Shown here: in pieces, positions 35,024-64,000 of the stretch | Layout of the letters: each line of letters starts with the position of its first letter | Numbering within the stretch: the first letter of the stretch is position 1 | DNA from: Medicago truncatula | Taxonomy: Eukaryota; Streptophyta; Magnoliopsida; Fabales; Fabaceae | Direction: 5' to 3' | Assembly: GCF_003473485.1 (NCBI RefSeq) | Contig: NC_053047.1 | Span: 37,682,972 to 37,746,971 of the forward strand | Length of the DNA stretch: 64,000 bases | Translations under genes and position numbers: made by a program | The notes under the pieces: model-generated | Seen by the model: only the letters and a program-made list of their open reading frames with translations | Databases searched by the model: none | What the model was told of the DNA's origin: nothing

Positions 35024-38000
35024 TCAACTATTGAGCAGTGGAAGTACATTAGCTTGGACTCCGTTTCCTTGCACTCTTATTGCTGCCTTGTTTGCCTAAG
35101 CAATGAAGAAATATTGTTAAGAGCCATATAGTTGATAATATTTTTTTTTGTCAAATGCATCTAAAGGTCCTTTAAGTTTTTCGTTTTTCCCAAAGTGGTC
35201 TTTTAAGTTTCAAAAGTCCCAAACAAGTTCTTTAAGTTTCAACAGTCCCAAACAAGTCCTTTTAAATTTTGAATCGTTTCAAACAAGTCCTTTTAGAGGA
35301 TGATGATGATGATTCAGATGATAGCAACAAAGAACATTATCCACCATTTACCATGCCTAAAAAGATGACTAATTTTAAGTGGGTGTTAGAAGCCAGATTT
35401 GGTACCAAAGATGAGTTCAAGGAAGCAATTACCAACTATGCTATCTACAATAGGACTTGTTTGAAACGATTCAAAAACTAAAAGGACTTGTTTGGGACTT
35501 TTGAAACTTAAATGACCACTTTGGGAAAAACGAAAAACTTAAAGGACCTTTAGATACATTTGACCTATTTTTTTTTATTTTTTAATATAGGTGAGTAAAT
35601 ATTCATTTTAATCTTTAAATGTGTGAGTTGTTATTACCATAGTGTCCGAATCTATGAAAATTACAAAAATATACTTGAAGGTGTTTTTTAAGTCAGATTG
35701 TCTATCATATGTATCTTTCGTTAATTAGTTTGGTCTTCAAATATGTCTTCCTTTAGTCAGTTTGGTATACGAACTTTTTAACAAAAGACACATTTTGATA
35801 CATTCAAAATACTATGACACAACCTAACATATTTAATAATCAAAATAGTAGCTTTAGCAAAATAGAGTAACTTACTTCTTTCTCCCAATTGGTACGCCAA
35901 ATGACAATAAGAAAACACACCACTTGCACAATAAGTGCTGTCACAAGACCTAAAAAGAGCCCCTATATTTTTGAAGAACCAAGTTAATCTAAAATTTATT
36001 AGAGCTTCAAATTAAGAACTTAGTTTACTACTCAACAACATAGGAACTTGATTAAAAGATGGTTAAATCTTACTTGTCCCTTCATGTGGAAGATAAAAGC
36101 CAAGACAGCAGAAAAAGGAATTCCCACAAGATAAAATGATCCTAGATTAACAAATGCACCAAGTTTCTGCCAACCACATCCTCTTGCAATACCTATACAC
36201 AATCAAATAATCAAACTATATATCTAAACATAAATAATTTCATGCCAAATTGCAACACTAGGGTTGAGCTATTTTTACCTTGAAGTGTTGTTTGAAATGA
36301 ATCTACAAAGATGGCAATTGCAAGAACTGGTGTCATGGAAGTCACATATGAAACTACTTCATATACATTGCTAAAAGCCTTGGCCCAAACTTTCCATAGT
36401 GACATAATGAAAGCAAACTCTAAAATTCCACAGGCAAAGGCCATGAATAAGGCGACTAACATAGCTAAACTTGCAGCATTTGGACTTCCTGCTCCTAATT
36501 CATTTGAAATTCTTGTACTATTTTGTGGAAACATGAAACAAAGCTTATTATACTCAATAATAACAACATATAGTAAACCAAATATATGTTACATCAATAT
36601 CATAAGTAAACAAAATAAATGTTACATCAATATCATTTTTAGTGATAGCACATTTCTTGGGTATCTTTTAGGATCATAATATAGTATTATTAATCATGTT
36701 TAGCATGAAAGACTAACCTTCCTGCAACACTAACTCCGAATGGCACCATCCAGAATGTACCCAATATATTAATACTATGGAAGAAAAAGTACTTGGGTCA
36801 GGTATATAACAAAGCAATAAATTGATGTATCTGAATAGAAAAGAAAAGAAAATGTATCCAAAACATGCATTAGCATAATCATGAGACCATGACTTGATAG
36901 AAACTAACCATATAGAAAGCACTGATGTTTGCAATTTTGGATTGGGAAGAGCACCAGAAAGAAGCACCATTAGTTCAAATGTCCATGATTCTAAACTGTA
37001 ACATTAAAAAACAATTAGAAATTGTAAAGGATATTGTCTGAAGTTTAAGTACATTAGAATTCTCTTCAATGAAAAAAATTTAATAATCTTATTTATAGTT
37101 ACTAAACCAAAAAAAAATAATAATGTGCATCTTTAAAGGACTAAGATAAGATTACTCTACTACTAAGATTTAAGTACTTATTTATTCTTCTATATCCTAT
37201 CAAATTCAATTTTGGTTTTGAATAAATTACATACCAAACCATGACTGCTGAAGGAAAAGCAAGTTTGAGAAATTGAGGGATGTTGTGCAAGGATTCCATT
37301 GATAAACCAACCCAAGTCCTTTTACATGAAGAGGAGAACTTGATGTAAAGTAGCAATAGTATCACATTAAACCAATTTGATATGCAAAGTGCAATAGCAG
37401 CTCCTTTGATACCAAACCCTAAATTTATAACCAATGTCCAACATAGAAGGACATGTACTAAGGTAGTGATTCCATTAGCCAACACCATGGGAAAAACTAT
37501 GTTTTGAGTTTGCAAGAATTTAACAATGCACCTAAGAAGGCCATTGGCAGCAAGGCTAGGAATTGAGTAACGAGCAAATAATTGAGCTTGTGCTGCAATA
37601 GTTTGGTCTTGATGTAAAATCACCAAAATAGGTTCTAAGTATGCCCATATAATTGACAAGGGTATACTAACAAGGGTGGTAACCAACATGGCTCTTTGTG
37701 TGTATATGCCAACCATATGATATTGCTTTGCTCCATATGCTTGACCACAAAATGTGTCTAGTGCACTTGACACACCCATCTAAATAAATATAAAATAAGT
37801 TAATAACTATAGTATGATTATTAGTAAAAGAAAAATAATAGCATGATACAAATTAGTGGCAGAGCTAGTATAAATTCTAAGGTTAATAGGTCTTTATCCC
37901 CTGTAATATAGGTTATTTTCGGTTTTCCTCACTGTAATTTTTTATTTATTTACCCCCTTTAAAAAAAATCTGTTTTGATTTACTCCCCTAATAGGCCAAA

Positions 38001-47063: not shown

Positions 47064-47549
47064 TCAAGTCATTTGAATTCTAGAGAAAGATAAACCTAGC
47101 TTATCTCTATCTAGCATAGGTAAAGCAAACGCGGGTGGAGAGTCCCACCGTTGAGAAGAGTACATAGAAAGACCTTGCCCATTCTTAGCAAGGACATCAG
47201 CCACCATATTTCCCTCTCGAGGAGTATGAGAACAGATGCATTCCATCTGTCTAGCAAGGATCTTATAGTTGAACCATCTGTTGTGCATCCGCCAAGGCAC
47301 TACCACATCCTGATGAAAAGCTTTAACCACAATCAGAGAGTCACATTCTACCCAAATATTATTCATATGCATTTCAAGAGCCTTCTCAATCGCAATCATG
47401 AAAGCATTGAACTCTGCTTCCAAGGGCATGGCATAACCAATATTCTGCACAAGAGCTCCTCTAAAAACAGCAAGGTGAGATCGAAACACAATCCCAATGA
47501 CACCATGAGAAGGATGATCCAAAGCAGAGCCATCAATGTCACTTAGCAT
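47064..47549 (-). pseudogene. LINE-derived RNase H (RVT_3) fragment
   Basis: A 161-codon frame with the plant LINE RNase H pattern: DIDGSALDH (first Asp), PLEAEFNAFMIAIEKA (Glu), IWVECDSLIVV (Asp) and EGNMVADVLAKNG (last Asp). All four acidic positions are present. No reverse transcriptase precedes it and the N-terminal edge is abrupt, so it is a stranded fragment, although the frame itself is open. A truncated SINE A-box (CTGAGCTAAGCTCACGGGG on the plus strand) abuts at 47590. Confidence 0.7.
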
Positions 47550-48264: not shown

Positions 48265-48910
48265 TAATGAAGAAGAAATGAAATATTTTTACAACTAAAA
48301 ATATTTTTCCTTAAAAAAATTTCTCAACTAAAAACATGTGGAATCAAATACAAGGGAAGATGAATACTTACCGTGTACAGAAATTTCCTTTTCACTTTGA
48401 GACCTCTTGAACTTCTTGCCATGCTTCAAATTTATAATTGTTTTCCTCCCCGTTATGTTGTTCATGGAGCAGCATGTATATAAGTATATAAAGAGAGAAA
48501 AACAACACTATTCGATTAATGGCCACGATGCATTTCAATGTTGTGTCAGCATCTTATTCCTTTTTAGTGTATCAATAATTGCTCTCCTATATAAAAAAAA
48601 ACTTAGCCAAATTTACGCTAAAACTAATTTATACATGTGTGATGAGTTGGATTCGTGGTAGGTTGTAAATGTGAGAGGTATGATTATTATTGTTTGGAAG
48701 AGTGAATATGGAGAGACAAGAATAAAGAGAAAATTGAGTACTTTTCATAAAATGGAAAATTGTGAGGTGGGAGGTACGTCCATTATCGTGAGTTGGTTAT
48801 TGTGAATGATTCATTACTAGATATTATGAGCTCCATTTCTTTTGCAAGATTTTCCATGTAGAATCGATTTTTTGGTTCTTGTTTAATTTTTAGTAAAGAT
48901 AAAAAAAAAT
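48265..48910. repeat. Duplicated block, copy 2 (paralog at 44036-45430)
   Basis: Colinear with copy 1 but without its two MITEs. It carries the possible minus-strand mini-exon 48422-48372 (MARSSRGLKVKRKFLYT, then GTAAGT). The adjacent minus frame 48261-48046 (hydrophobic, SIFGGQFDADPVDDMMLL, then a GTAAGG donor) may be a following exon, but the phases do not join cleanly. A degraded relative of this second piece lies at 51650-51850. Confidence 0.6.
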
Positions 48911-56421: not shown

Positions 56422-57207
56422 TTGTCTAGTGCATTTGGCTTGGTAGGAGCATGATTTTGTTTATAATTAGTTGTTGAACTTGATTAGATATCGGGGTACT
56501 CTTAGTCCTTAATCCTAACTATCTGTAATGATACAGAAAATGAACACGTGTAAATAAGGCTCACATAAGTTTTGATTTGGAGGTAGAAATGATCTTTGAT
56601 TGTAATACTCTCGGCTGGTAATTTAGAAGCTAAATAATTAATATTCAGAATACTTGCATCCCAATCCTATAAAGATGTTATATGTCACGGAAGATTGTCA
56701 ATGAATTTTCACGGAACACGTACAAAACTTACTTCCCACGTGCGACGGTAGTTTCTTTTTTAAAATGAAATACATGAAAAGATTAAATTAAATGAAATAC
56801 ATGAAACGATATTCTTGCTTAACCGATTTCAATTATAATTAAAATGATCCATCAAAACCAAATTCTATTGAAATAAAACAATGAAAGTCATTTCCCACTC
56901 AACGAAGTTGGTTACATGGATTGAACAACACCGTTACCACCGTCATCAATAAGACTCATTTCTCCGGGATGCAAGTATTCTGAATATTAGTTATTTAGCT
57001 TCTAAATTACCAGCCGAGAGTATTACAATCAAAGATCATTTCTACCTGCAAATCAAAACTTATGTGGGCCTTATTTACACGTGTTCATTTTCTGTATCAT
57101 TACAAATAGTTAGGATTAAGGACTAAGATTACCCCGATATCTAATCAAGTTCAATAACTAATTATAAACAAAATTCATGCTCCTACCAAGCCAAATGCAC
57201 TAGACAA
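56422..57207. repeat. Large inverted repeat, 241-bp arms and 303-bp spacer
   Basis: 56422-56662 is the near-exact reverse complement of 56966-57207, from TTGTCTAGTGCATTTGGC to CTTGCATCCC, with about a dozen differences. The spacer is noncoding. No target duplication is visible. MULE transposase sequence touches the right end, so the arms could be long MULE TIRs; this is an inference. Confidence 0.8.
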
Positions 57208-57209
57208 AC

Positions 57210-57466
57210 GTGCTCAGCAAAGGACACACTTGCTGAAAATGACAAGGAAAAGGAGTGGTAATCAACCAGCAAAGGACACACCTGCTGAAAATGACAAGCG
57301 TGCTCAGCAAGAAACGCACGCAGAACAACATATTGCCCCTGTTGAAGAAGGTCGTCCTTCCGAGCCAGAACTGATCCAACGATAAGCAAACCTGGCCAAT
57401 TTGAAGAAGGGAATGACATTCACCAACATGAAAGACTTCAAAGATGCGGTAAAGGACTACACAATT
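57210..57466 (+). pseudogene. MULE (MuDR) transposase N-terminal fragment
   Basis: The frame gives polar sequence with an internal repeat (two CAAAGGACACACYTGCTGAAAA blocks), a stop, then LKKGMTFTNMKDFKDAVKDY and TI. The last part fits the MuDR N-terminal domain. It is cut exactly where the copia LTR starts (57467), so the copia element inserted into this MULE. Confidence 0.6.
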
Positions 57467-58143
57467 TGTTGGAACAAAAATGTATTTCACAATAAACCTT
57501 AATGAGTTTTGATGATAACAAGGTATTAAAAATTGTCAATTGGTTATTGCTAATATTTGTTCAAGTGTACATGACCATAGGCAAAGTTAATCAATTTCAA
57601 TAGGTCTTGGAAGAACAATAGAGAGCAACGGAATCTAAAGCATCTGAAGAAAACTGCGTCTGAAGCTATGAGTGCTTCTGAAGTTTCAAGTGCCTCTGAA
57701 GTGATGACGTCATCAGAAGCAGAAGTCCATCAGAAGCGAAATTTCATCAGAAGCTATATCATCACCAAAAGCTATAGTTGATCAGTATATTCAAACTGAA
57801 GTTTCAAAGGAGCTGTTTTTCGTTATATCCTCGTCTAAGAGAACGAAGGATTAAAAGGGAGGTACCAACGTTCATTTGAAAAGCATTGGGTGCTTGTCCT
57901 TCATTGAAGAGTTGAAAAAGTACAAGTGTACAACCACTACCTCCACTACTCTGTTTTTGTCTACGCTACAAGACAAGACAACAGCTCTGCCTGCAAAAAT
58001 GTTCCTTCAAGATAGGAATGAATTTGAAGTTAATCCTTCACAAGACTACACCCAAATCAGGCAAAAGATTAATGGTGGATGATCAGAGGAACTCAACGAC
58101 TCTTTAGACGTGCTAAAAATCTCAACGTCTCTTTACTCACCTC

Positions 58144-58150
58144 TATATAA
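58144..58150 (+). promoter_or_regulatory. Probable TATA box of the copia LTR
   Basis: TATATAAAGG in the sequence CACCTCTATATAAAGGAGTG, about 600 bp before the LTR end. Confidence 0.6.
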
Positions 58151-58367
58151 AGGAGTGAAGACTTGAAGATTGAGAGTGACATCAACACAAGTTAAAAGCG
58201 CTAAAACTCTGCCAAATTTGATTCTAAAAAGCACTTTGAATTTCTGCACTGATTTGATATATCTTAGAAATTCTTAAGTCTAGAGTCTTTATTGCATTGT
58301 ATTGTGAACACCACTGATTGTATATCAAGTGTTCAAGTCAAACAATTTTCTGTGTAATTCTGTTTGA

Positions 58368-58500
58368 TTAGAAGTCTCTCGCCTGAGTGCTTGATCATTA
58401 GAAGACTCTTGCTTTAGTGCTTAAGCATTGGAAGTCTCTCGCCTGCGTGCTTGAGAATTTGAGAAGTCTCATACTAGTGAGTATTGAGCATTTGTAATCT
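58368..58500 (+). repeat. Tandem repeats inside the copia LTR
   Basis: Three to four imperfect units of about 35 bp, with GAAGTCTCTCGCCTG and GTGCTTGA blocks (near 58371, 58399, 58430 and 58461). Confidence 0.75.
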
Positions 58501-58754
58501 GTGTGATTATTAGTGGAAATCTCCTTGGAAGTGCAAGGGGGACTGGACTACTTCCGGTTTGTGGAAGGAACCAGGATAATTGGTTGTGTCCTTCTTTCTT
58601 TTCTCTACTCTGTTTTATTCCGCTGCATATCTGATTCTGAACATTACATCAGAAGCCCTCCCAACTAGCTTCTGAAGTAATACCAGAAGAAGATTTCTTT
58701 AAGAGAAAAAGAAAACACAATTCAACCCCTCCTTGTGTTTTTGTCACCTTCAAT

Positions 58755-58766
58755 TGGTATCAGAGC
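58755..58766 (+). other. Retrotransposon primer-binding site
   Basis: TGGTATCAGAGC, complementary to the 3' end of plant initiator Met-tRNA. Two bases separate it from the LTR end. Confidence 0.92.
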
Positions 58767-58820
58767 TTGCTCTGTTATCAAAGCACTTAACCGTGTGACA
58801 GATCAAGATCCGAGAAAAAC

Positions 58821-60673
58821 ATGTCTACTGAGGAACCTAAATCTTCTACATCTACAAGGTACAATAATGTTAGTCATGACTATGGTACATCTGACAAGAA
58901 ATCAGATTCTGGAAAAGCTCCAAAGTTCAATGGAGATCCAGAAGAGTTTTCTTGGTCGAAAACCAACATGTACACCTACATCATGGGATTAGATGAAGAG
59001 CTGTGGGATATTCTTGAAGATGGAGTTGATGATTTGGTTTTGGATGAAGAAGGAGCTGCTATTGACAGAAAGATTCACACTCCTGCTCAGAAGAAGCTAT
59101 ACAAAAAGCATCACAAGATTAGAGGGATCATTGTTGCTTCTATACCACGCACTGAATATATGAAGATGAGTGATAAATCCACTGCTAAGGCAATGTTTGC
59201 ATCACTCTGTGCTAACTACGAAGGTAGCAAGAAGGTTAAAGAAGCAAAGGCACTAATGCTAGTTCATCAGTATGAGCTGTTCAAGATGAAGGATGATGAG
59301 AGTATAGAGGAGATGTACTCAAGATTTCAAACCTTAGTATCTGGACTGCAAATACTGAAGAAGAGTTATGTTGCTTCTGATCACGTAAGCAAGATTCTGA
59401 GAAGTTTGCCTTCTAGATGGAGACCCAAAGTAACTTCCATTGAGGAAGCTAAGGATCTAAACACTTTGAGTGTTGAAGATCTTGTCAGTTCCCTCAAGGT
59501 ACATGAAATGAGTCTGAATGAGCATGAATCCTCTAAGAAGAATAGATCTATTGCTCTACCATCTAAAGGAAAGTCTTCCAAAGCTTACAAGGCCAGTGAA
59601 TCTGAAGAAGAGTCACTAGATGGAGATTATGATGAAGATCAATCTGTGAAGATGGCTATGCTGTCTAACAAGCTTGAATATCTGGCAAGGAAGCAGAAGA
59701 AGTTTTTGAGCAAGAGGGGTGGTTATAAGAACTCCAAGAGAGAAGATCAAAAGGGATGCTTCAACTGTAAGAAGCCTGGACATTTTATTGCTGATTTCCC
59801 TGATCTTCAGAAGGAGAAGTCAAAGAGCAGACCTAAGAAACCAAGTTTCAGCTCTAGCAAATTCAGAAAGCAAATCAAGAAGAGTTTGATGGCAACCTGG
59901 GAAGATCTGGATAGTGAATCTGGTTCTGATAAAGAAGAAGCATATGATGATGCAAAAGCAGCCATGTGGTTGTGGCAACAGTGTCATCAGAAGCTATATC
60001 AGAAGCTGAATCAGATTCAGAAGATGAAAATGAGGTATATTCCAAAATTCCCAGACAAGAACTTGTTGATTCTCTTAAAGAACTTTTATCACTATTCGAA
60101 CACAGAACCAATGAGTTGTCTGATTTAAAAGAAAAATATGTTGATTTAATGAAACAACAAGAAACAACTCTATTGGAACTGAAAGCTTCTGAAGAAGAGC
60201 TCAGAGGGTTTAACTTCATATCAACCACATATGAAGACAGACTCAAGATTCTTTGTCAGAAGCTACAAGAAAAGTGTGATAAAGGTTCTGGCAAGAAACA
60301 TGAAATTGCCTTAGATGATTTTATTATGGCGGGCATTGACAGAAGCAAGGTAGCTTCTATGATCTACAACATATACAAAAACAATGGCAAAGGGATCGGA
60401 TACTCTGAGGAGAAATCCAAAGAGTACAGTTTCAAAAGCTATTGCGATTGTATTAAGGATGGATTGAAATCCACCTTTGTGCCTGAGGGTACTGATGCTG
60501 TAACTACTGTTCAGCCAGAACCTGAAGCCTCTGGTTCTAAGGGTAAGATTACATCAAAGTTAGAAAACCTTAAGACTAAGGTTATGACAAAATATGATCC
60601 TAAGACTACAAGGATCAAAATTCTGAAAAGATCAGAACCTGTTCCTCAGAGTCTGATCAAACCAGAACCTTGA
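58821..60673 (+). pseudogene. Copia gag polyprotein, frameshifted
   Basis: The frame from 58821 (MSTEEPKSSTSTRYNN) carries the UBN2/gag domain and a zinc knuckle near residue 315. The knuckle reads CFNCKKPGHFIADF, so the fourth ligand of the Cys-Cys-His-Cys set is Phe. Reading continues by a frameshift near 59965 into the frame 59966-60673 (VYSKIPRQELVDSLKELL; KGIGYSEEKSKEYS), which ends at a stop. A further gag-pol linker is open at 60755-61015. Gag would package element RNA, but this copy cannot make the full protein. Confidence 0.88.
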
Positions 60674-60944
60674 ATCCTAAAGTCAAAGGGTCAGAAGAAC
60701 AAAATAGTTATTGCTTCTGAGAAAACAATATCCAAAGGTGTTAAACCTAAAGTATTGAATGATCAGAAGCTACTTAGCACTCAGCCCAAGGTACAAGGGA
60801 GGAAAAGTAAAACCTCCAGAACTAACCCAAAAGGACCCATGAAGATATGGGTACCTAAGTCTGAATTGATCAAAACTGCAGGTATGCCTAAGGGCAAGAG
60901 AGAAACAAAGGTCCTGGTACCTAGACAGCGGGTGTTCAAGGCAT

Positions 60945-62858
60945 ATGACAGGAGAGAAAGCTTTGTTCCTCACCCTTACCATGAAAGATGGAGGAGAAGT
61001 GAAGTTTGGTGGTAACCAAACTGGAAAAATCATTGGTACAGGTATTATTGGTAATTCCTCCATTTCAATAAATAATGTTTGGCTAGTAGATGGTCTGAAG
61101 CATAACCTATTGAGCATCAGTCAATTTTGTGACAATGGGTATGATGTTATGTTCAGTAAGACCAACTACACTCTAGTCAACAAGGATGACAAATCCATTA
61201 CGTTTAAGGGAAAGAGATTTGAGAATGTCTATAAGATTAATTTCTCTGATCTGGCTGATCAGAAGGTAGTTTGCCTTCTGTCAATGAATGATAAAAAGTG
61301 GGTATGGCATAGAAGGTTGGGACATGCTAATTGGAGATTAATTTCTAAAATCAGCAAGTTACAACTTGTCAAAGGTTTGCCTAACATTGATTATCATTCA
61401 GATGCACTCTGTGGTGCATGTCAGAAAGGAAAAATTGTTAAAACTTCGTTCAAATCCAAAGACATTGTATCAACCTCCAGACCCTTAGAATTACTCCATA
61501 TTGATCTGTTTGGACCAGTTAATACTGCATCCTTATATGGAAGTAAATATGGATTGGTCATTGTTGATGATTACAGCAGGTGGACTTGGGTAAAATTCTT
61601 AAGAAGTAAAAATTATGCTTGTGAGGTGTTTAGCAGCTTCTGCACTCAAATACAATCTGAAAAGGAAATGAAAATTTTGAAAGTCAGAAGTGATCATGGT
61701 GGAGAATTTGAAAACGAGCCATTTGAATCTTTTTGTGAAAAACATGGAATTATCCATGAATTCTCTTCTCCTAGAACTCCACAACAAAATGGGGTTGTAG
61801 AGAGAAAGAACATAACTTTACAAGAAATGGCCAGAACCATGATCCATGAAAATAATTTAGCTAAACATTTCTGGGCAGAAGTAGTTAATACTTCATGTTA
61901 TGTCCAAAATAGGATCTACATCAGACCTATGTTGGAGAAAACTGCATATGAACTCTTCAAAGGAAGAAGACCCAATATCTCTTACTTTCATCAATTTGGA
62001 TGTACTTGTTACATTCTAAATACTAAAGACTATCTAAAGAAATTTGATGCCAAGGCTCAAAGAGGAATCTTTTTAGGTTACTCTGAAAGGTCAAAGGCAT
62101 ACAGAGTGTATAATTCAGATACACATTGTGTTGAAGAATCTATGCATGTTAAATTTGATGATAGAGAGCCTGGAAGTGAAACTCCAGAGCAAGTTGAAAG
62201 TAATGCAAGTGCAAATGATTCTGAAGATGCATCAGAATCTGATCAACCTTCTGATACTGAAAAGAATTTGGAAGATGAATCAAGTCCAAATGCTGAATCA
62301 AATCCAGAAGCTGAGTCAAGTTCAGAAGCTGAACCTAATTCAGAAGCACATAATGAAAATGCTTCTGAGGATATTCAAGATAACACTCAGTATGTGGTTC
62401 AACCAAAATTCAAGCACAAATTTTCACATCATGAGGAGCTAATAATTGGAAGCAAAGACAGTCCTAGAAGAACAAGATCTCATTTCAGACAAGAAGAATC
62501 TATGATAGGATTGCTATCAATAATTGAGCCAAAGACTATTGATGAAGCTCTCTCAGATGATGGATGGATATTAGCTATGCAAAAAGAGCTAAATCAGTTT
62601 CAAAGGAATGATGTGTGGGATCTAATACCCAAACCTAATCAGAAGAACATTATTGGAACAAAATGGGTATTCAGAAACAAGCTGAATGAACAAGGAGAGG
62701 TAACCAGAAACAAAGCTAGACTTGTTGCACAAGGTTATAGTCAACAAGAAGGCATTGATTACACTGAAACATTTGCTCCAGTTGCAAGATTGGAAGCAAT
62801 CAGGTTACTTCTATCCTATGCATTTAATCATGGCATAATATTATGCCATCTGATATAA
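60945..62858 (+). pseudogene. Copia pol, protease-deleted and truncated in reverse transcriptase
   Basis: A 637-codon frame. It starts in the middle of the protease region ([11 protein letters not shown]); the D-S-G active site that normally precedes it is absent, apparently through a deletion that joins the linker directly to this point. Then: GAG pre-integrase ([16 protein letters not shown]), integrase core with Asp in [10 protein letters not shown], Asp in [10 protein letters not shown] and Glu in QNGVVERKN, an acidic spacer rich in Ser-Glu-Ala, and the start of RVT_2 ([34 protein letters not shown]). It stops after NHGIIL at 62844, before the YxDD catalytic motif. Confidence 0.9.
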
Positions 62859-64000
62859 TATTATGCCATGATTAACTGCATAGGATAGAAGTAACCTGAT
62901 TGCTTCCAATCTTGCAACTGGAGCAAATGTTTCAGTGTAATCAATGCCTTCTTGTTGACTATAACCTTGTGCAACAAGTCTAGCTTTGTTTCTGGTTACC
63001 TCTCCTTGTTCATTCAGCTTGTTTCTGAATACCCATTTTGTTCCAATAATGTTCTTCTGATTAGGTTTGGGTATTAGATCCCACACATCATTCCTTTGAA
63101 ACTGATTTAGCTCTTTTTGCATAGCTAATATCCATCCATCATCTGAGAGAGCTTCATCAATAGTCTTTGGCTCAATTATTGATAGCAATCCTATCATAGA
63201 TTCTTCTTGTCTGAAATGAGATCTTGTTCTTTTAGGACTGTCTTTGCTTCCAATTATTAGCTCCTCGTGATGTGAAAATTTGTGCTTGAATTTTGGTTGA
63301 ACCACATACCGAGTGTTATCTTGAATATCCTCAGAAGCATTTTCATTCTGTGCTTCTGAATTAGGTTCAGCTTCTGAACTTGACTCAGCTTCTGGATTTG
63401 ATTCAGCATCTGGACTTGATTCATCTTCCGAATTCTTTTCAGTATCAGAAGGTTGATCAGATTCTGATGCATCTTCAGAATCATTTGCACTTGCATTACT
63501 TTCAACTTGCTCTGGAGTTTCACTTCCAGGCTCTATATCATCAAATTTAACATGCATAGATTCTTCAACACAATGTGTATCTGAATTATACACTCTGTAT
63601 GCCTTTGACCTTTCAGAGTAACCTAAAAAGATTCCTCTTTGAGCCTTGGCATCAAATTTCTTTAGATAGTCTTTAGTATTTAGAATGTAACAAGTACATC
63701 CAAATTGATGAAAGTAAGAGATATTGGGTCTTCTTCCTTTGAAGAGTTCATATGCAGTTTTCTCCAACATAGGTCTGATATAGATCCTATTTTGGACATA
63801 ACATGAAGTATTAACTGCTTCTGCCCAGAAATGTTTAGCTAAATTATTTTCATGGATCATGGTTCTAGCCATTTCTTGTAAAGTTATGTTCTTTCTCTCT
63901 ACAACCCCATTTTGTTGTGGATTTCTAGGAGAAGAGAATTCATGGATAATTCCATGTTTTTCACAAAAAGATTCAAATGGCTCGTTTTCAAATTCTTGAT
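62855..64000 (-). pseudogene. Inverted copy of copia pol, truncated at the same point
   Basis: Reverse complement of 61699-62844 with no net length difference (for example the internal ATG at 61827 pairs with 63872). It covers integrase from the QEFENEPF region to RVT_2 and ends NHGIILYQM, about nine bases further into reverse transcriptase than the plus-strand copy. Protein differences number about eight in 343 residues (for example AEA for AEV, SYAV for SYAF). It continues past the right window edge. Confidence 0.92.

Follow-up and report, generated by a model that had tools for sequence, protein, structure and literature searches.

How does a plant retrotransposon come to lie in a chromosome as two facing halves, each the mirror image of the other about a centre of ten nucleotides? 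We addressed this question for a locus in the Medicago truncatula genome (429.9 Mb in 42 contigs). The locus was found at the right-hand end of C6:37682972-37746971, a stretch of 64,000 nucleotides that we refer to as the window. Further to the left, the host context in the window includes a gene with an NT-C2 domain (3-1331), a MatE fragment (37141-37779) and an RNase H-like (RVT_3) fragment (47064-47549).

Extent and structure of the palindrome

An inverted-repeat search of the window returned two arms of 1142 nt each (61703-62844 and 62855-63996), which are 99% complementary, have 10 nt between them and pair at positions that add up to 125699. This reproduces the palindrome that a first-pass annotation had described from the letters alone, including its sum of paired positions, its 10-nt centre and its arm divergence of about 1% (12 of 1142 positions in the window part). 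The start given there, 61699, has to be moved: the palindrome is real, but its ungapped stretch begins at 61703, where the right arm lacks 6 bp. Folded as DNA, the 101 central nucleotides reach -44.3 kcal/mol, compared to a mean of -8.1 for shuffled sequences (0 of 200 shuffles equalled the native value).

The whole palindrome is larger than the window. In window numbering it spans 57467-68243 (10,777 bp, about 10.8 kb), with the left arm at 57467-62844 and the right arm at 62846-68243, the latter including DNA past the window end and reaching its outer end at C6:37751214. At each outer end the palindrome stops exactly at an LTR terminus. For the right arm, the same annotation had predicted integrase, gag and then an LTR on the minus strand, with an end near 68.2 kb; all of these are present beyond the window, and the LTR stops at 68243.

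Both arms are 5' halves of a Sirevirus-like Ty1/copia element, each with an LTR, a primer binding site, gag, integrase and the start of reverse transcriptase (RT). On the plus strand, the left arm opens with a complete 5' LTR of 1286 bp (57467-58752) that begins exactly with TGTTGG. Two nucleotides past the LTR lies TGGTATCAGAGC (58755-58766, plus strand), which we take to be the primer binding site. The gag ORF (58821-60128, plus strand) matches Retrotran_gag_2, with a weak zinc knuckle, and the pol ORF (60945-62858, plus strand) contains gag-pre-integrase, rve, SH3 and RVT_2 domains. In this single ORF rve occupies residues 178-279 and RVT_2 residues 555-635, which places integrase before RT and bears out the copia pol identity proposed for the arms. 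RVT_2 of the left arm is cut by the junction at profile position 80 of 244. The right arm repeats this arrangement on the minus strand, with the RT start and integrase inverted at 62846-64000 in the window, and gag, primer binding site and LTR beyond it, up to 68243 (locus L009). The palindrome locus contains only these two 5' halves, without a polypurine tract (PPT), RNase H or 3' LTR. An LTR pair among the relatives (C5:21817483-21829353) suggests a length of about 11.9 kb for the complete element.

In all three relatives read at this point (L053, L054 and L058), the PPT AGGGGGAG is followed by AT and then by the TG of the 3' LTR. The octamer AGGGGGAG together with the AT/TG attachment site is given as a Sirevirus signature in a passage of PMC2829016. 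Two further features were observed in LTRs of the family. At C7:17499803-17508986, eight copies of an LTR segment lie next to each other with a step of about 985 bp, beside an almost full LTR; the units correspond to query positions 279 to 1261, and once to 1286, forming an LTR-derived tandem array. Three copies (L049, L051 and L055) have C runs of at least 12 just before the LTR 3' end, where other copies read CCCCTTC or similar, reflecting either expansion or assembly error.

Relationship between the arms

Alignment of the arms over 5378 bp shows 63 substitutions (41 of them transitions) and two indels, of 17 bp and 6 bp, a divergence of 1.2%. When polarised by the commoner allele, derived changes number 31 in the left arm and 32 in the right. 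The differences are unclustered (gap standard deviation, p = 0.27; densest 250 bp, p = 0.90), and on this ground gene conversion was rejected as an explanation for the similarity of the arms. The LTR has diverged more (24 of 1286 positions) than the interior (39 of 4092; Fisher p = 0.011), in agreement with the two arms having differed to some degree beforehand. One difference falls inside the primer binding site, where position 58757 is G in the left arm and A in the right; this A is found in none of the 8 covering copies of a 20-copy comparison set and probably arose after insertion.

The closest match of the left LTR is the right LTR (97%, with the next at 95-96% among the best 40 of 2688 candidates), and that of the left gag region is the right arm (99%, with the next at 97% among the best 40 of 1044). 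Both arms also share 26 alleles that are absent from the 22 other copies compared, counting sites at which at least 8 of these have sequence. Because of these mutual closest matches and exclusive alleles, we regard the arms, as judged from their sequences, as sisters, each the nearest to the other among the relatives scored. At a substitution rate of 1.3e-8 per site and year, a divergence of 1.2% would place their common ancestor about half a million years ago or less.

To what extent the arms stem from one template or two can be read from alleles that segregate in the family. The 20 comparison copies came from the places found in the junction search (best 40 of 781 candidates, with the palindrome itself among the 40), and a set of 22 adds the two best gag-search matches after the right arm. 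At 24 of the 63 differences, both alleles are present in other copies. Random placement predicts 7.2 of 63, a control that is too lenient because C>T changes recur. We therefore relied on a control matched for change type and C context, which predicts 12.4 with 20 copies and 13.2 with 22. Outside the C>T class, 10 of 32 differences have both alleles elsewhere against 2.4 expected (p = 6.5e-5), whereas C>T changes exceed expectation only slightly (14 of 31 against 10.8, p = 0.15; restricted to alleles in at least two copies, 7 against 3.4, p = 0.047). In 15 of the 24 cases the minor allele occurs in one copy only of the 20, these being spread across 10 copies, and such alleles could also be produced by recurrent mutation. 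The excess of segregating alleles makes two templates likely: two slightly different parent sequences were likely joined and most differences came later, a statistical result from few sites. Fold-back of one cDNA would predict arms that differ by later private changes only, from which the data depart, again statistically and weakly for C>T changes alone.

The junction

Identity of the left arm with the element ends at the last base of ATAATATTAT (62835-62844), a 10-nt self-complementary stretch that is native to the element. The centre (62845-62854) consists of G plus CCATCTGAT, the last nine bases being right-arm sequence past the point where the left arm stops. The closest copy at the junction point (L003) reads ATGGCATAATATTATATCAGATGGATGTC. 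The left arm stops after ATAATATTAT and the right arm, in the sense of the element, after ATCAGATGG, with one G between them. The break points are 9 nt apart, in line with the earlier description of two arms broken at the same site in RT. An exact-pattern search with the 40-bp centre found the junction sequence once in the genome.

Self-palindromes of at least 10 nt are not in excess in the element (seven in 5.4 kb, compared to 6.8 in shuffles), with 0.6% of positions falling at most 2 nt from the 3' end of such a palindrome. At the junction, ATAATATTAT could pair with its own copy in another element, and extension would then give GCCAT. CCAT could in turn pair with ATGG at the other end, so that every junction base can be templated. 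Alternatively, the ends may have been joined plainly with one filler base.

Flanking DNA and target sites

The left flank ends in ACAATT and the right flank begins with GTTAC; comparison of CAATT with GTTAC gives no target-site duplication (TSD). The flanks that adjoin the arms are unrelated, without mirroring beyond the element. The sole match between the flanks lies kilobases off (151 bp, 83%, 48281-48427 with 70235-70383). Genome searches with the immediate flanks (57207-57466 and 68244-68528) gave no second copy of either among the matches listed. Nine relatives were checked for both ends, which were found in seven; in the other two (L033 and L064) the far end was absent where expected. 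In a further three (L026, L032 and L035) the LTR start alone was read. An exact 5-bp TSD is present in four of the seven (L030/L067, AGAAG; L036/L068, AAACT; L025/L070, TGTTC; L031/L057, AAAGA), a near-match in one (L074/L072, GTATG and ATATG) and none in two (L063/L066 and L024/L065). The ends of L031/L057 are 17.7 kb apart, and something has probably inserted within that element. The two relatives without a TSD make its absence at the palindrome weaker evidence than it appears.

At either outer end the palindrome begins directly with TG, whereas an AT stands ahead of the LTR in 3/3 PPT junctions. As this AT of unprocessed cDNA is missing, the outer ends look integrase-processed, and each resembles a true integrase joint in its sequence. 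The AT/TG attachment site on which this reading is based is described in a passage of PMC2829016.

The left flank contains a plus-strand reading frame, KKGMTFTNMKDFKDAVKDYTI (57404-57466), which resembles the N-terminus of a MuDR-type transposase (PF03108 positions 6-25) and stops at the LTR. Its match to PF03108 (E 0.006) is below the cut-off, as is a slightly better one to TPR_1 (E 0.005), so that the transposase assignment by sequence is weak. The last 24-25 residues of the frame are 60-63% identical to three genomic transposase genes (E about 0.6, weak by itself). One of these genes continues DYTIHKGKDIKW, and for 242 residues from there the remaining two match it at 100% identity. Neither the window nor the adjoining 12.7 kb on its right yielded a continuation of the frame (best E 0.12), and none turned up in the few genomic candidates examined, including those beside a 3' LTR. 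C1:14147300, which starts at profile position 23, was rejected as a frameshifted copy without an LTR. Among 150 of the 378 candidate continuations, two that were seemingly cut near the right place, C7:142993 and C8:4988100, were examined and rejected as well.

The surroundings hold other repeats. Just upstream of the palindrome and directly before the transposase-like frame, 56422-57207 forms a separate fold-back structure with 209-nt arms (97% complementary), 303 nt between them and an extra 37-nt pair outside; partial copies occur on C3 and C4. To the right of the palindrome, about 85 bp (L009 7511-7600, approximately 69.04-69.13 kb) match many genomic places at 97-99% and, by sequence, resemble the terminus of a transposon that is short and abundant.

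Origin of the palindrome

The first-pass annotation had favoured a fold-back or template switch. Chromosomal fold-back of one element was rejected, since it predicts mirrored flanks and those observed are unrelated. A simple fold-back of one molecule is not supported either, in view of the unrelated flanks, the absent TSD and the two likely templates; a template switch between two cDNAs is possible. The annotation had also named as evidence against itself a right arm from a clearly different family member with independent flanks. The flanks are indeed independent, while the second part holds by half, the arms being sisters.

We tentatively rank first, while holding it just short of probable, an origin in two opposite sister insertions that fused in RT at the 10-nt self-complementary site, with everything between them lost. 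A single Sirevirus-like Ty1/copia family would have contributed two sister insertions, close together and oppositely oriented. A later deletion would have run from a point in one RT gene to the corresponding point in the other, and joining of the ends would have left two facing 5' halves. We infer that there were two insertions, that the inverted copies paired and thereby became aligned at one RT site, and that ATAATATTAT served for the join along with the CCAT/ATGG match, much like in end joining of the polymerase-theta type. The unrelated flanks, the missing TSD and the missing mates follow directly from such a deletion; all were observed, as was the lack of a reciprocal product, with mates and product absent as far as the searches below reach. 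The two likely templates, the integrase-processed look of the outer ends and the end of the left arm at the last base of a self-palindrome also speak for this origin. No 3' LTR mate of at least 97% was present among the best 40 of 2688 candidates. An exact pattern for the reciprocal tail-to-tail junction, with at most 30 nt between mirrored RT sequences, had 0 matches, though it would miss a larger junction deletion or sequence variants. Both results fit a deletion, which leaves neither behind. A degenerate pattern for a 3' LTR end plus TSD (at most one mismatch, both strands) had 229 matches, of which 100 were considered, made up of the full set of 32 perfect matches and 68 with a single mismatch; more diverged ends escape such a pattern. 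None of the five places examined (three exact and one one-mismatch CAATT, the latter with an altered LTR end at C2:48273765, and one exact GTAAC) continues the transposase frame. Against the deletion, two such close sisters are unlikely to be neighbours by chance, and breaks 9 nt apart need a pairing mechanism. The transposase continuation was also not seen beside a 3' LTR in the places examined, though a deletion would remove it.

A single retrotransposition event could account for several of these points at once, and we consider it a serious possibility, somewhat less likely than two insertions and a deletion. A palindromic cDNA would have been made from two co-packaged sister RNAs and joined by integrase at two places instead of across one 5-bp stagger, target DNA being lost or rearranged. 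The growing plus strand of one cDNA would anneal via ATAATATTAT to the plus strand of the other and copy back to its U3 end, giving a cDNA with U3 on both sides. This would explain in one step the mutual closeness of the arms among the relatives scored, the near-symmetric join, the equal and evenly spread derived changes (31 and 32) and the lack of a close 3' LTR mate in the best 40 of 2688. It also agrees with the integrase-processed look of both outer ends and with the two of seven relatives that likewise have no TSD. However, a palindromic cDNA inserted normally by integrase would need a 5-bp TSD, which CAATT and GTTAC do not provide. The left-flank frame is not resumed on the right, and no element close enough to be a parent was found for either arm among the best 40 matches of each in LTR and gag searches. 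The template copied backwards must moreover be plus-strand DNA with a complete LTR, because genomic RNA has no 5' U3. As an improbable variant, two sister cDNAs in one particle may each have stopped or broken at the self-complementary RT site and been inserted by the one finished U3 end, at separate target sites, after which the inner ends were joined.

Slightly less probable still is an assembly artefact, in which two family members were merged through a chimeric read or a graph error. The palindrome comes from a single assembly, and assembly is difficult for repeats that are 95-99% identical. Yet a fold-back read with a missed adapter would mirror the flanks, which are unrelated, a graph error needs an overlap whereas an exact-pattern search finds the 40-bp centre only once, and 24 of the 63 differences have both alleles in other copies, unlike plain read noise. 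The first-pass view that this is no trivial read artefact is supported. A chromosomal inversion or translocation between two copies, with one break in each RT gene, would also yield unrelated flanks without a TSD, but we think it very unlikely. Its reciprocal tail-to-tail product should exist elsewhere, whereas the exact pattern for that junction had no match, four CAATT and one GTAAC LTR-end places among those considered have no matching continuation, and the best 40 of 2688 candidates contain no close LTR mate. In sum, two insertions and a deletion are favoured by the structure of the ends and by the interrupted frame, and one aberrant cDNA event by the sister arms and the near-symmetric join. 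We lean narrowly towards the deletion.

Implications and comparison with known systems

As the locus illustrates, two elements can become a mirror pair while their flanks are unmirrored, and automated annotation might take such a pair for one element or for two truncated ones. On the most likely reading, loss of DNA between opposite copies is one way in which retrotransposons can leave a very long DNA palindrome. If a single event was responsible instead, the locus would be evidence of strand joining between co-packaged cDNAs of a plant retrotransposon. If two cDNAs were inserted and their inner ends joined, one event would have produced a palindromic provirus without a TSD and a host deletion, a way for an LTR retrotransposon to make long chromosomal palindromes. 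Replication of a 10.8-kb palindrome whose spacer is 10 nt long should be difficult, and its transcription, if it occurs, could yield hairpin RNA and silencing of the family.

A literature search of titles and abstract openings, with most subscription journals outside its coverage, found no such palindrome in plants. Plant LTR retrotransposons that are cut short by illegitimate recombination become partial elements without a TSD, with loss of host DNA; such truncations in plant genomes are reportedly the subject of work by Devos, Ma and Bennetzen. They resemble the present locus in being partial and in having no TSD, whereas here two opposite copies were cut at one site and fused into 10.8 kb. 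Palindromic or rearranged unintegrated retroviral DNA is said to have been described by Olsen and Swanstrom in 1985. There, too, cDNA sequences are joined in inverted orientation, but the present case is a chromosomal copy of a plant element that has no TSD. The order of integrase before RT in the palindrome arms is that of copia elements. The relatives have the same AGGGGGAG-AT-TG arrangement as the Sirevirus lineage (SIRE1 type), as described in PMC2829016, whereas the palindrome locus consists of two 5' halves without PPT, RNase H or 3' LTR. Finally, PMC10164571 describes how widely spaced inverted Alu pairs in yeast can pair and cause rearrangement, with fold-back and dicentric chromosomes as the outcome. 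A simple fold-back would mirror the flanks, whereas those of the Medicago palindrome are unmirrored.
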